In this document: positions 16,747 to 53,556 of the stretch, in pieces
Numbering within the stretch: position 1 is the stretch's first letter
Layout of the letters: every line of letters starts with the position of its first letter
Source of the DNA: a virus
IMG/VR virus record: IMGVR_UViG_3300004369_000021
Location: 1 to 53,556 of that record
Reading direction: 5' to 3' (one strand)
DNA length: 53,556 nucleotides
Made by a program: the position numbers and the translations under genes
Notes under the pieces: generated by a model
The model's input: only the letters and a program-made list of their open reading frames with translations
What the model was told of the DNA's origin: nothing
The model's database searches: none

Positions 16747-17742
16747 TCAGGCTGCTTCGAGCAGACGGTTGGTGACGTTCACCTTGAACGAGGCGCGGTC
16801 GGTCAGGTGCGCACGCTCGAATGCACGGCTCTTGTCTCCTTTGCCACCGGCTTCGTGATCGAAGAACTGAGTCACGGCGTTCACCAGACCCCATGCGGTG
16901 CCTTTGGAGGAGCGGAAGTCGTTGCCGAGGCTCTCGCTGTCGTACAACTTCATGATACGGCGCAGAACGATGGACGAATCAACCATCTCGTCGCGGGTCA
17001 TGTCGTCGCCTTCTTTGTTCTTCCACTCAGCCTTCAGTTCGTCAGCGACGATGTCGATCGCAAAGTCGCGGTCAATGTTCAGGTTAGCCAGCTTGTCGAT
17101 GTTCTGCAGGAAGTTTTCCCATGCGCCTTCGACGATGCCCAACTGACCTTTGACGACGCTGGGATCGAACACCGCTGAGTGCGGCACGCGGATCTGAGCG
17201 TTTTGACCTTGAGCGCCGATCGACATGCGCAGAGTGTTGTTGCAAACAACGCGGACGCTGGTCAGGTGCACGGCGGTTGCCATCGAGCCGTCGCAAGAAG
17301 AGGCCATCAGGAGGTAGGGCTTGATCTCGTCCTGACCCATGATGCGAGCGGTGTCGCCACACTTGGCGAGTGCCCAGAACTTGCGACCGCCGAACAAGCA
17401 ACCGGCAGTTTCCATCTGGAACCCTTGGTCAGCGATCAGGTCGCGGAAGAATTCCAACGCCTCACCAGGATGAACGATTTTGTAGTTGTTGGAAACAACG
17501 CCGAGCGCACCGCTGTTGTCGGAGCGGTAGAGCACGCGACGGTCGGGGAAAATCACGTCTTGGTTCTGTGCGCCTTTGTAAACCAGCGCGGTGTCGTTGA
17601 CGTTCCAGTTCATGCCAGCTTCAACACGCCACGTGTCGAGGTCAGCGTCTTCAGTCAGGGCTTGGCCAAGTCCGTGCCAAGGAAGCGAACCAACGTAAGC
17701 CATGTTAGCGCGGTTGTTCGTCATGTCGAGTTCGTGTGCCAT
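16747..17742 (-). CDS. DUF932 family protein
   Basis: I use the ATG at 17742 (MAHELDMTNNRANMAYVG, 331 aa) because GGAG lies six bases upstream; the ATG at 17748 is too close to it. The sequence is typical of DUF932 (phage/plasmid-like, TIGR03299 type): GSLPWHGLGQALTEDADLDT near the start, RVLYRSDNSGALGVVSNNYK, VRVVCNNTLRMSIGAQG in the middle and DKSRAFERAHLTDRAS at the end. The family is common in phages and mobile elements, but its biochemical role is not established. It has its own promoter and operator at 17794-17822 and is separated from the replication operon, so its expression seems to be independently controlled. Confidence 0.85.
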   Translation of the reverse strand: MAHELDMTNNRANMAYVGSLPWHGLGQALTEDADLDTWRVEAGMNWNVNDTALVYKGAQNQDVIFPDRRVLYRSDNSGALGVVSNNYKIVHPGEALEFFRDLIADQGFQMETAGCLFGGRKFWALAKCGDTARIMGQDEIKPYLLMASSCDGSMATAVHLTSVRVVCNNTLRMSIGAQGQNAQIRVPHSAVFDPSVVKGQLGIVEGAWENFLQNIDKLANLNIDRDFAIDIVADELKAEWKNKEGDDMTRDEMVDSSIVLRRIMKLYDSESLGNDFRSSKGTAWGLVNAVTQFFDHEAGGKGDKSRAFERAHLTDRASFKVNVTNRLLEAA

Positions 17743-17773
17743 TTTCATTCTCCAGTTCTGAGTTGGGTTGAGT

Positions 17774-17793: not shown

Positions 17794-17822
17794 ATCATGC
17801 CTGAACTTTTCAGTTCAGGCAA
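17794..17822 (-). promoter_or_regulatory. Promoter with operator dyad for DUF932 unit
   Basis: On the - strand TTGCCT (17822-17817), 17 bases, CATGAT (17799-17794). A perfect inverted repeat TGCCTGAACT-GAAA-AGTTCAGGCA runs from the -35 box to the -10 box. Its half-sites TGCCTGA-N10-TCAGGCA are repeated in the promoter at 18369-18397. The dyad lies upstream of the start point, so it is more likely a protein-binding site than an RNA structure, although readthrough RNA could also fold there. Confidence 0.8.
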
Positions 17823-17841
17823 CTACTTTGTGAAACTATTT

Positions 17842-18312
17842 TCAGACATCCTCCTTCTTGGTGATTTTGTAGACCGCGATCGCACGCATCGCACGACCAT
17901 TGGTCCAGTCGTGATTGGTGCCGTTGATGATGGTCAGGACGTGACGCTTGGTGAACATCAGGTAGGTGTTGCCGTCAGCCCAGACGCTGTTGAACCGAGC
18001 AGGGTGGTGCGTGGTCACGTTGCGGAGCACGTCACGGTGTCCTTTGGGGTACTGGTCAATGAAGTCCTGGATGTGAGCGCGTTCCGCTTTGCAACCAAGG
18101 TCAGCAACAGCCTTGAAAATGTCGTTGGTGTAAGCACCACGACCGTTGCGGCGACCGTTGACAGCCATGGTGCGGTGGGCGATTTCGTACTCAACACCGC
18201 AAGCCAGCGCAACAGCCTTGACCGAGCAGTCGTTCTTTTCTCCCATCGCGTTGCTTGCTGCAACCAGTTGATTGAATTCGCCTGTGCGGATCGAGGTGTT
18301 GATTCGTGCCAT
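17842..18312 (-). CDS. Hypothetical protein with cysteine-protease-like N-terminal pattern
   Basis: The protein is 156 aa (MARINTSIRTGEFNQLVAAS). The segment KNDCSVKAVALACGVEYEIAHRTM, with a later ANG/GNTYLMFTKRHVLTIINGT, resembles small papain-like or NlpC-like proteins in which a Cys near the start of a helix is followed by a His in a beta strand (C29 and H-containing RHVLTI). This is a pattern resemblance only. No signal peptide is present. It is transcribed alone from the promoter at 18369-18397, with a strong RBS (GGAG) in a leader shared with the DUF932 gene. Function is not established. Confidence 0.6.
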   Translation of the reverse strand: MARINTSIRTGEFNQLVAASNAMGEKNDCSVKAVALACGVEYEIAHRTMAVNGRRNGRGAYTNDIFKAVADLGCKAERAHIQDFIDQYPKGHRDVLRNVTTHHPARFNSVWADGNTYLMFTKRHVLTIINGTNHDWTNGRAMRAIAVYKITKKEDV

Positions 18313-18343
18313 TTTCAGTTCTCCAGTTCTTCAGTTCTAGGTC

Positions 18344-18360
18344 GGTTGAACGCTTCAACC
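18344..18360 (-). promoter_or_regulatory. Leader stem-loop upstream of the 156-aa protein
   Basis: On the - strand GGTTGAA-GCG-TTCAACC is a perfect 7-bp hairpin with a 3-base loop, located just after the predicted transcription start of the promoter at 18369-18397. Confidence 0.55.
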
Positions 18361-18368
18361 TTAAGTGT

Positions 18369-18397
18369 ATTATGCCTGAGTGTTTCACATCAGGCAA
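18369..18397 (-). promoter_or_regulatory. Promoter with operator dyad for the 156-aa protein
   Basis: On the - strand TTGCCT (18397-18392), 17 bases, CATAAT (18374-18369). The dyad TGCCTGA-N10-TCAGGCA spans the promoter, and an outer AAGTGT/ACACTT pair extends the symmetry. The surrounding 60 bases are AT-rich. It sits 45 bases after the helicase stop. Confidence 0.85.
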
Positions 18398-18441: not shown

Positions 18442-19956
18442 TCAACGAGAAAACAGAGCCATCCCCTTGTCTATGATGGTGTCTGCGATGTCCTTCTTGC
18501 TCATCAGCGTGCGGATCACGACCTCATCGATGGTGCCTTTGGCAGCGATGTTGATGTAGGTGACGTTCTTCTTCTGGCCGATGCGGTGGGCGCGGTCTTC
18601 GCTTTGGAGCCTGTCGCGCAAGCTGAAGTTGTTGCTGAAGTAGATCACGTAGGACGCCGCGACGAGCGTGATGCCAGTGCCACCGGCTTGCTGGTTGCCG
18701 ACGAACACCTGCGCGTCGCCGCGCTCGAATGATTCGATCGCATCCGTGCGGTCGTCCTTGTTCACTCCGCCGTGATACTCAACGCACTGAATTCCGTCCA
18801 AGCGCAGACGCTTCACAATGTCTTCGATCTCAACACGGTAGCGTGCCCACACGATCACCTTCTCGCCGCTTTCGACGATCTTGCCGACCCGATCGACGAG
18901 CAGATCCAGCTTTGGGTTGTCGCCTTCGATGCGCACAGGGTTTTCAGAAAGTGGGTGGATGTAGTAGCCAGACGTGATCTGCGCCAACTTGGTGACCGCG
19001 ACCAGCTTGTTGAACGGTGTTTCTTCGTTCTCGAACACAATGCGGCAATCGTCCTCGGCTTTCTTGTAGATCTTGATCTGCTCTGGCGTCATGCTGAAGA
19101 CCAGCGTCTTGTAGATCTTTTCGGGCAAGTCCAAGCATTCGCTCTTGAGCACACGGAAGCTGTGGGGTGCGATGAGCCGCGACAGCTTTTCGAGGTTGCG
19201 GTACTTGGGTCTCCCACCAGCACCACGGGCAACAACCTGAGGCACGCCGCGCGAGTTGGTGCGACGGCGGATGTTCTCAAGCAAGGGATTTCCCTGCTGC
19301 AACATCTCGGCGTACTCCGCCTTGAACGCATAGAAGCTGGTCGTCCCTAGTATGTGTTCGTCCAGGAACGAAAACTGACTGAAGGCATCGAACGGTGCGT
19401 TGTTGATCGGCGTTCCAGACATGATGCGCCGCCAGTGGCTGTGGTTCTTCAGCTTCATCAAATTCTTGGTGCGCTTGGCGGTGGGGTTCTTGACGCTGTC
19501 GCTCTCGTCGCAAACAATCATCAATCGGCGTGCGCACAACCCGAACCGCTCGGCTTCAGCCATGCCTTTGGCGGTTTGCAGTGCTTCCCAGTTCATGGTC
19601 AAGATCTTCAGTTCGCCGTTGGCTGGCTCGTAGAGCCTCTCCAATTCTTCCTTTTCAGCTTTGCGCGGCGTCGCCGCCCACGATGCTGCGCGGTAGCGAA
19701 CCCAGTCGGGCATGTGCTTGGGCAACTCCAGGCGCGTCCAGTTGGTGTGCACACCGTTGGGTGCGAAGACCAACACAGCGTCACAGTCTCCAGACGCCCA
19801 AAGGTCGGCAGCGTTGTTGATGACGATCCAAGTCTTGCCCGTGCCCATCTCGGCCAGCAATGCGTATGCACGCGAGCGGCCAAACTTGTTGAGGCATTCT
19901 AGTTGGTGCCGGTAGGGCTTGGTTTTGAACTTAGTGTCTGGCGTAATTTTGTCCAT
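18442..19956 (-). CDS. SNF2-type SF2 helicase
   Basis: Using the ATG at 19956 (MDKITPDTKFKTKPYRHQLE) the protein is 504 aa; a TTG at 19992 would add 12 residues. Helicase motifs are in order: motif I GTGKT (38-42), motif II DESD (150-153), motif III SGTP (180-183), then the second RecA domain with VIVWARYRVEIEDIVKRL, GNQQAGGTGITLVAA and motif VI SEDRAHRIGQ. This is the core of SNF2-family DNA translocases, common in phage replication modules. The upstream PD-(D/E)XK nuclease overlaps it by about 58 bases, so the two are translated together and could act in one process such as recombination or fork processing. Confidence 0.9.
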   Translation of the reverse strand: MDKITPDTKFKTKPYRHQLECLNKFGRSRAYALLAEMGTGKTWIVINNAADLWASGDCDAVLVFAPNGVHTNWTRLELPKHMPDWVRYRAASWAATPRKAEKEELERLYEPANGELKILTMNWEALQTAKGMAEAERFGLCARRLMIVCDESDSVKNPTAKRTKNLMKLKNHSHWRRIMSGTPINNAPFDAFSQFSFLDEHILGTTSFYAFKAEYAEMLQQGNPLLENIRRRTNSRGVPQVVARGAGGRPKYRNLEKLSRLIAPHSFRVLKSECLDLPEKIYKTLVFSMTPEQIKIYKKAEDDCRIVFENEETPFNKLVAVTKLAQITSGYYIHPLSENPVRIEGDNPKLDLLVDRVGKIVESGEKVIVWARYRVEIEDIVKRLRLDGIQCVEYHGGVNKDDRTDAIESFERGDAQVFVGNQQAGGTGITLVAASYVIYFSNNFSLRDRLQSEDRAHRIGQKKNVTYINIAAKGTIDEVVIRTLMSKKDIADTIIDKGMALFSR

Positions 19957-20351
19957 GATTCTTTGTCCCGTACTGGTTTGGTTGTGTGCCAAAGTGCAAC
20001 CGCCATCAACTGATCGACGGTCATGTCGTTGATGGTTTCTGTGTGCTCACCGCCGATCAACATCCAACGTTTGTCGGTCACGATCAGGAAGTAAGCATTG
20101 CCCTCAGCCTTCATTTGCCGCATGAACCAGTTCTTCTGGTCTTGCGACACCTTGTGGTTGGAGCCGAACAGCTTGGTTGTTGCGCGCACAGGCTCCTTGG
20201 GTGACTTCTGCTCGATCCAGCACTCAACGCCTTCCGTGCAGTAGTTGATGTCCGGCATGCCGTTCACCACGACATTCTCAACGCGGTCGAGCCGGTCACG
20301 ACCTTGAGGAAGGTTTGCTTTCAACACCTTGTAGTCGTTGCTTTCAGCCAT
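19899..20351 (-). CDS. PD-(D/E)XK nuclease (VRR-NUC-like)
   Basis: The start at 20351 (MAESNDYKVLKANLP, 150 aa) overlaps the polymerase stop and has GGAGG upstream. The catalytic pattern is clear: E25-containing RVENVV, G31-M-P33-D34, and W45-I-E47-Q-K49, which together give PD...ExK. Following strands (YFLIVTDKRWMLI) complete the small nuclease core. Related phage enzymes act on branched DNA or as endonucleases. Lying between a DnaE-type polymerase and a SNF2 helicase, it probably handles replication or recombination intermediates. The exact substrate cannot be told from sequence. Confidence 0.8.
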   Translation of the reverse strand: MAESNDYKVLKANLPQGRDRLDRVENVVVNGMPDINYCTEGVECWIEQKSPKEPVRATTKLFGSNHKVSQDQKNWFMRQMKAEGNAYFLIVTDKRWMLIGGEHTETINDMTVDQLMAVALWHTTKPVRDKESWTKLRQTLSSKPSPTGTN

Positions 20352-27744: not shown

Positions 27745-27759
27745 CGGTCCCATCGACCG
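27745..27759 (-). promoter_or_regulatory. Leader stem-loop upstream of the 65-aa gene
   Basis: On the - strand CGGTC and GACCG form a 5-bp stem around GATGG, seven bases downstream of the -10 box of the promoter at 27767-27795. It matches the position of leader hairpins at 17774 and 18344. Confidence 0.45.
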
Positions 27760-27766
27760 TAACAGT

Positions 27767-27795
27767 ATTATCTAACATAATTTTCTGTCCGGCAA
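27767..27795 (-). promoter_or_regulatory. Promoter for the long - strand DNA metabolism operon
   Basis: On the - strand TTGCCG (27795-27790), 17 bases, GATAAT (27772-27767), followed by AC. It would drive 27718 down to the helicase at 18442. Upstream of the -35 box is an 18-base near-perfect direct repeat. Confidence 0.75.
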
Positions 27796-27830
27796 CGTTT
27801 ATTTTGCGTCCTGCAACATTTATTTTGCGT
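27792..27830 (-). repeat. 18-base direct repeat upstream of the operon promoter
   Basis: GCAACRTTTATTTTGCGT occurs at 27792-27809 and 27813-27830, a 21-base period, which is two helical turns. The second copy overlaps the end of the flavoprotein gene, and the first touches the -35 box. The element TGCGTCCTGCAA between them (27805-27816) is the complement of TTGCAGGACGCA, which also appears in the divergent region at 28732-28924. It may be a regulator site. Confidence 0.6.
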
Positions 27831-51798: not shown

Positions 51799-51827
51799 TT
51801 GCCTTGTAATGAACTTGAGGGCATAAT
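51799..51827 (+). promoter_or_regulatory. Promoter for adhesin and lysis genes
   Basis: TTGCCT (51799-51804), 17 bases, CATAAT (51822-51827), an exact match to the genome consensus. It would drive 51861 through the circular join to the endolysin at 4330. Confidence 0.85.
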
Positions 51828-51860: not shown

Positions 51861-52178
51861 ATGGCACAGACCGGCTACACCCCAATTCAGTTGTACCGCA
51901 GCACCACTTCCAGTGCAGTGCCTTCTGCAGCGAACTTGAATCCTGGTGAACTTGCGATCAACATCAACAACGCTGACATGGCCTTGTACGCCGAAAATGC
52001 GTCTGGCACTGTGACTCGCATCATGAACAATCCTGCTGGGTTGAAATACCCGACAGCAGATGGATCAAACGGCCAAGTAATCAGCACCGACGGTTCTGGG
52101 AACTTGACATTCTCAACACCGTCAGCTGGTGTGACAACCGGCAAGGCCATCGCCATGGCCATGATTTTTGGATTCTAA
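51861..52178 (+). CDS. Small fibre/tail protein
   Basis: The protein is 105 aa, starting MAQTGYTPIQLYRSTTSSAV. The motif NLNPGELAININNADMALYA is widely found at the N-terminus of phage fibre proteins, where it forms a beta attachment element; here it stands alone with SNGQVISTDGSGNLTFSTPS. It may be a base subunit on which the adhesins assemble. AGAGG is upstream. It is 12 bases from the next gene. Confidence 0.6.
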   Translation: MAQTGYTPIQLYRSTTSSAVPSAANLNPGELAININNADMALYAENASGTVTRIMNNPAGLKYPTADGSNGQVISTDGSGNLTFSTPSAGVTTGKAIAMAMIFGF

Positions 52179-52578: not shown

Positions 52579-53556
52579 ATGTCGATGCGCTATCAAGCTG
52601 GTATTTTAACGGCTTCTTATTTTCCGCTGAAAGTTCCAAACTCGCCGACCGCAGCCACGGCTTCGGTTGCTAGCGGAACTTCGGTTTCGGTTGCATTTAC
52701 CGCTCCGACTGATGTTGGCGGGGGTGCCGTTACCAGCTATTTGGTGGTTTCCTCTGATGGACAAACCGGAACAGGCTCTTCTTCTCCAATAACAGTCAGC
52801 GGTCTGATAACTGGAACAGCATACACTTTTGTCGTTTACGCAATCAACGATTTTGGCACTGGCCCCGCCAGCGCTGCAAGCAACAGTGTAACTCCGGTCT
52901 CAATCGGTCAGCAGGCTTATACTTCTGTCGGAACCTACAGCTGGGTCGCTCCGGCTGGAGTAACTTCAGTCTCTGTTGTTGCTGTTGGCGGTGGCGCGGG
53001 TAACGCCGGAGGCGGCGCTCAAGCTGGTGGTGGTGGTCTTGGATACAAGAACAATTACACGGTTGTGGCCGGAAACTCTTACACCGTGGTTGTCGGTCGC
53101 GCTGGTCCTCCAGGTTATTTAGGTGGAACAGATCTGAATAACGGAGGTGACAGTTACTTCATTTCAACAGCAGTTGTTAAAGGTGGTGGCGGCATCGGCT
53201 TTTCTGGCAACGCAGGTGGAACTTACGTCGGAGACGGCGGTGGCAATGGTGGTCTCGGAGGTTATGCAGCAGGCGGCGGCGCAGGCGGTTATTCCGGAAA
53301 TGGCGGCAACGCTGCGCAATCCAGCGGTGTGCTCGGAACAAATGGATCCGGTGGTGGCGGCGGCGGCGCATATTCATGGGCTAGCGGCGCAGATGGCGGT
53401 GGTGTGGGCATACTCGGCCAAGGCGCAAGTGGCTCGGCTGGTGATCCAGGCCAACCTGGATCTGGCGGCTCAGGCAAAACCTACGGTGGTGGCGCGGGCA
53501 ATAATAATCAAACCGGCGGCGTAGGAGCGGTTAGAATTATCTGGCCAGGAACCAGC
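52579..53556 (+). CDS. FnIII plus glycine-rich tail adhesin, paralogue 1 (cut by window end)
   Basis: The gene starts at ATG 52579 with GGGAGG upstream and runs off the window; its end is at 1-135, giving about 337 aa overall. A short N-terminus (MSMRYQAGILTASYFPLKVP) is followed by one FnIII-like domain (about 20-111, with SGLITGTAYTFVVYAINDFG and ending SAASNSVTP) and a glycine-rich domain opening QQAYTSVGTYSWVAPAGVTS. It is the first of three tandem paralogues and is probably a receptor-binding tip protein with alternating specificities. The N-terminal 20 residues differ from those of the others, which may allow a different attachment. Confidence 0.85.
   Translation, partial: MSMRYQAGILTASYFPLKVPNSPTAATASVASGTSVSVAFTAPTDVGGGAVTSYLVVSSDGQTGTGSSSPITVSGLITGTAYTFVVYAINDFGTGPASAASNSVTPVSIGQQAYTSVGTYSWVAPAGVTSVSVVAVGGGAGNAGGGAQAGGGGLGYKNNYTVVAGNSYTVVVGRAGPPGYLGGTDLNNGGDSYFISTAVVKGGGGIGFSGNAGGTYVGDGGGNGGLGGYAAGGGAGGYSGNGGNAAQSSGVLGTNGSGGGGGGAYSWASGADGGGVGILGQGASGSAGDPGQPGSGGSGKTYGGGAGNNNQTGGVGAVRIIWPGTS
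53458..53556. repeat. Right copy of 99-base terminal direct repeat
   Basis: Identical to 1-99. It duplicates the codons just before the C-terminal end of adhesin paralogue 1. Confidence 0.95.

Follow-up and report, generated by a model that had tools for sequence, protein, structure and literature searches.

Two minus-strand promoters in a 53,556-base phage record (hereafter the window, the whole stretch of DNA analysed) carry the same dyad, TGCCTGA-N10-TCAGGCA, and these dyads are real and non-random. On the sequence comparisons below, we put at about even the chance that they are intercistronic RNA hairpins embedded in sigma70-type promoters, and we infer that the dyad is under selection as RNA. 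In the arrangement we propose, the −35 box would be complementary to bases running into the −10 box, so that a short gap behind a same-strand gene would serve both as a host (sigma70-type) promoter and, on upstream read-through, as an RNA stem-loop. The stem-loop would either dampen read-through or cap or trim the upstream message (helicase or 156-aa) at its 3’ end, while the next gene would get a new transcript from the overlapping promoter, one that at three promoters (P3, P4 and P5) is predicted to open with its own small 5’ stem-loop, probably shielding its 5’ end from decay.

A broader proposal, which we hold tentatively and at somewhat less than even confidence, is that a self-complementary sigma70-type promoter is kept behind the replication helicase in several phage genera (Pbunavirus, Wifcevirus, Myosmarvirus, Carpasinavirus, Kylevirus and the window’s group), its 24-nt element acting as the next transcript’s start as DNA and as the previous one’s end or protection as RNA, with the −35/−10 base-pairing itself under selection. 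If true, 24 bases of a compact phage genome would encode both an mRNA end and a promoter, and the boxes of a promoter would covary as base pairs, a pattern that would mislead promoter finders and operator searches.

A shared dyad in two promoters of the window

The record bears a 99-nt direct terminal repeat (1–99 and 53458–53556) and is therefore probably a complete genome. On its minus strand, replication genes ending in a 516-aa helicase gene (18442–19992) are followed by a 156-aa gene (17842–18312; PHROG 3754, function unknown) and a 333-aa DUF932 gene (16747–17748). Predicted promoter P4 (TTGCCT-N17-CATAAT, 18369–18397, minus strand) lies between the helicase gene, its upstream neighbor and the anchor of our cross-phage comparison, and the 156-aa gene, and P5 (TTGCCT-N17-CATGAT, 17794–17822, minus strand) lies between the 156-aa and DUF932 genes. 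Searches of the window yielded zero Rfam matches at the gathering threshold and no tRNA or tmRNA.

The first-pass annotation had reported one 24-base dyad in both promoters and nowhere else in the window. We recovered it exactly at 18373–18396 in P4 and at 17798–17821 in P5, both on the minus strand, and nowhere else in the 53,556 bases; when up to three mismatches are allowed, the whole record holds five matches where 2.88 would be expected, which leaves the exact pair alone as unusual. The P5 dyad is a perfect 10-bp inverted repeat around a GAAA center with a predicted RNA fold of −16 kcal/mol (z −6.9), and the P4 dyad folds at −12.1 (z −5.3). Half-site centers are 17 bp apart within the 24-bp site, or about 1.6 helical turns rather than the two originally described. 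The statement that only the central ten bases differ is correct within the 24-mer, but the likeness between the two cassettes spans 117 nt (70% identity, E 2e-8), from an A/T-rich upstream stretch through the RBS as far as the start codon, and the two dyad sites are thus probably not independent events.

P4 and P5 belong to a family of five promoters in the window that have in common TTGCC, a 17-bp spacer and (C/G)AT(A/G)ATA, and a 56.6-kb relative (G001) likewise contains five promoter matches. P3 (27767–27795, minus strand) lacks the dyad. P2 (28764–28792, minus strand) and the divergent P1 (28819–28847, plus strand), which precedes a Pam3 gp32-like gene, have the same hexamers with neither a dyad in that register nor a leader stem-loop. 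Separately, a promoter-like site at 51799–51827 on the plus strand (TTGCC-N17-CATAAT) has a partial dyad of the outer four pairs and precedes a short gene (51861–52178) with tail-fiber-like matches.

Conservation in close relatives and the window’s helicase family

If the dyad were a common operator, a phage or host homodimer would bind it and block both promoters, and sites would differ among phages by each repressor’s own specificity. We regard this as unlikely, although P4 and P5 do present two identical half-site pairs spanning both hexamers. Both P5 arms are also retained in all five close relative contigs (L056, L057, L058, L059 and L065), whose P5 24-mers are identical to one another and differ from that of the window by one C-G pair changed to G-C and one A-T changed to G-T. 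P4 in these same contigs, by contrast, reads TTGCCGACTATGAAACACTCAGGCATAAT, with the promoter kept and the left arm absent in 5/5, such that half-sites are not retained wherever the promoters are; an outgroup with a homologous 158-aa gene (L169) has the left half-site only. The exact letters are limited to this small clade. A viral-contig scan with the exact pattern returned 55 stretches, five of them these relatives and 49 close to the number expected by chance on our own arithmetic, and a stricter version of the pattern gave none in genome contigs. Two exact matches in contig L027 were read and set aside as not of the P4/P5 promoter class. We found no repressor gene among the window proteins scanned, a subset of the ORFs; the earlier reading had also noted none that was obvious. 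What stands of the proposed shared operator is a dyad present in two promoters beyond chance; the case for its being one dimeric regulator’s common operator is weak.

Alternatively, the dyad could be a by-product without function of its own in the window’s group: three matching bases added to the promoter consensus (TTGCC ... TCAGGCATAAT), and a single copying of the result by cassette duplication. The outer TGCC/GGCA of the dyad is what the family’s −35 and −10 boxes predict, TCAGGCATAAT is already part of the window-family consensus, and the 117-nt likeness of the two cassettes fits a single copying event. Across 19 group promoters, outer pairs number 57 against 57.06 with swapped arms and inner pairs 22 against 19.2 (p 0.21; inner-pair p values range from 0.16 to 0.21), and pair counting in 18 of the group promoters detected no covariation. 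A set of 16 window-family promoters gave the same picture, with 71 against 68.5 for pairs 1–8 (p 0.25, not above the control) and 21/64 against 19.2 for inner pairs (p 0.32); only the window’s P4, L168 and L176 reach at least 6/8 pairs. This set derives from 25 post-helicase regions after removal of near-copies (L164 and L165, of L163; L174 and L175, of L173) and of regions with no convincing TTGC promoter (L177, L178, L179, L191 and L194), with the register of L170 adjusted by hand. Loss of the P4 arm in 5/5 relatives, together with pairing at the swapped level, indicates that the dyad letters are not a conserved operator in the window’s family. Against the by-product explanation, which we consider quite improbable, P5 pairs over 10 bp and stays paired despite a two-sided change and an A-T to G-T change, and distant phages covary clearly in the same register (below).

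In L173 and L175 the helicase is joined straight to DUF932 through a single promoter, which suggests that the 156-aa gene arrived with a second cassette, and L059 (4437–4907) carries a 46%-identical version of the 156-aa gene behind a nearly identical promoter and with the same tail sequence, in what looks like a gene swap.

Pairing behind the helicase in distant phages

In named phages, the promoter directly behind the same helicase repeats the geometry of the dyad in different letters: TGCCCTGG/CCAGGGCA in XcP1, TGCCGTC/GACGGCA in MyoSmar, GCCGTATC/GATGCGGC in Ab28, TGCCTTAC/GTGAGGCA in Kyle and TGACTTGTC/GATGAGTCA in Bas100, while contig L277 forms ten pairs around four bases. From 44 regions, 19 passed a hexamer-only score of at least 23, and 13 distinct promoters were left once copies and near-copies (L247, L251, L252, L255, L256 and L257) were dropped. 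Nine of these 13 have at least 6/8 pairs of −35/−10 in the same register and the other four lack such pairing. Inner pairs 5–8 are formed in 32/52 cases against 13.8 after arm swapping (p 5e-5, the minimum attainable with 20,000 swaps). Pairing kept through letter change is thus found in the distant set (p 5e-5) and not in the window’s family alone (p 0.25), and an earlier conclusion from 19 promoters that the dyad is promoter consensus only was reversed for the wider group by the named phages.

Elsewhere in ten genomes, which had been picked for having a dyad in the helicase slot, one of 72 promoter-like sites was paired; the lone case is a promoter of L253’s phage that also has a leader stem-loop. 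In a preset test on seven further phages picked by name, including PA1 from a genus already seen (Kylevirus) and one phage whose next gene overlaps the helicase, a promoter exceeded the cut-off in two, and both were paired (7/8 and 6/8). Two two-sided changes and one A-U to G-U change separate the hairpins of Pbunavirus from the Wifcevirus-type ones, and among the variants compared, hairpin-internal changes fall in the loop only (Wifcevirus and Myosmarvirus) or are absent (Pbunavirus). Two-sided changes would also be expected if the specificity of a homodimeric repressor drifts. The window joins this wider class through geometry and position, a link that is statistically weak within the window’s own family. 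Pbunavirus phages that infect P. aeruginosa have the element, as do the Wifcevirus-type phages of E. coli, which makes it testable in laboratory hosts.

The mismatches tolerated in these stems bear on whether the dyad acts as RNA or DNA. Non-Watson-Crick cells comprise 11 G-U and one A-C, a ratio that favors the RNA form over a protein-binding site, albeit in 17 hairpins that were chosen as paired and some of which are related (P5 to its relative, and the Kylevirus members Kyle and PA1 to each other), which makes their p value optimistic. Folding was not significantly better in sense than in antisense for the hairpins (p 0.16), and no significant difference was seen for the 60 nt behind the stop codon (p 0.69). 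A further argument against an operator is that the distance between the arms tracks spacer length (16, 17 or 18) from phage to phage, for example in L168 and UALMA. Pairing is present at Pam3 gp32-like genes behind the helicase (XcP1, UALMA and JSF39) and absent where such a gene follows a divergent promoter (the window’s P1 and that of a relative), indicating that it goes with the upstream helicase and not with the downstream gene. Counting against the hairpin reading, P3 follows a same-strand gene as well but is without a dyad.

The sole terminator-like match at either dyad lies at P5 on the opposite strand. With P4 and P5 directly behind same-strand genes, read-through into them is likely, and the suggestion that the two genes are controlled separately from the replication operon becomes doubtful. 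The same scan bears on the possibility that the dyad ends the upstream operon as a weak intrinsic terminator and overlaps a promoter by chance, which we consider highly improbable: a stable stem does follow soon after the stop codon, but the U-run is missing after it on the transcribed strand and the flagged match serves the opposite strand only.

No description of a promoter-embedded hairpin element appeared among the papers listed in literature searches, and the embedded hairpin proposed here resembles several known elements in part. Repressor operators can overlap −35 and −10 boxes, and the 24-bp dyad likewise spans both; it differs in that its letters vary between phages, its arm distance tracks the spacer and the window proteins scanned yielded no repressor for it. 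REP-type intercistronic stem-loops protect upstream mRNA 3’ ends and, like the dyad, come soon after a stop codon, whereas the window’s stem-loop coincides base for base with a promoter. Promoters of the virion RNA polymerase in N4-like phages also contain a hairpin, but the window’s stem is longer and its −35/−10 hexamers are ordinary; moreover, the longest listed ORF of the window, at 952 aa, is too short for an N4-type virion RNA polymerase.

Three side observations concern the phages compared. In MyoSmar (NC_048800.1, 64556–64583), the −35 and −10 boxes of another promoter-like site enclose a perfect 18-bp palindrome, ATAGTGGACGTCCACTAT. In L261, after position 2733, the slot behind the helicase holds a tRNA-like gene flanked by an inverted repeat (by eye). 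For JG024, the promoters predicted in the published account (PMC3008698 or PMC10134795) include those at ORF18 and ORF22, and six terminators are named.

Stem-loops at the 5’ ends of predicted transcripts

Predicted transcripts from P3, P4 and P5 open with small stem-loops of differing letters: CGGTC-gatgg-GACCG at P3 (27745–27759), GGTTGAA-gcg-TTCAACC at P4 (18344–18360) and AGGTC-gctt-GACCT at P5 (17774–17787), all on the minus strand. Taking start sites as inferred from the promoters, 18 of 22 leaders have a stem that begins 7–9 nt past the −10 box, and 15 of the 22 beat mononucleotide shuffles at p < 0.05. In twelve aligned leaders, paired cells make up 88.3% against 80.1% in shuffles and covariation is 0.379 against 0.232, neither value being reached in any of 500 shuffles. 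Whole-leader z-scores are unremarkable (0.10, −0.50, −0.61 and −0.78), and the leader stem-loop accordingly rests on position and covariation and not on energy. A leader model searched against 19 records recovered 15/15 viral-contig records at E of at most 1, the model having been built partly from the same phages; three of the four named phages had no match and the fourth matched at E 0.57.

Stem-loops at 5’ ends slow mRNA decay by hindering 5’-end conversion, according to a review (PMC3997798), and by analogy the leader stem-loops of P3, P4 and P5 likely have this role. As in the ompA/papA type described there, they sit at the extreme 5’ end of the predicted RNA. Unlike that type, they are common to a phage promoter family and show compensatory changes.

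The heptamer GCAGGAC is common to P1 and P2 (28764–28848) and to the stretch ahead of P3 (27795–27815), and its P1 copy is not kept in relatives. P3 itself ends a stretch in which a unit of roughly 21 bp is imperfectly repeated (GCAAAATAAAYGTTGCMGGAC; about 27750–27815, minus strand); by eye, one unit fewer is present in the relatives read.
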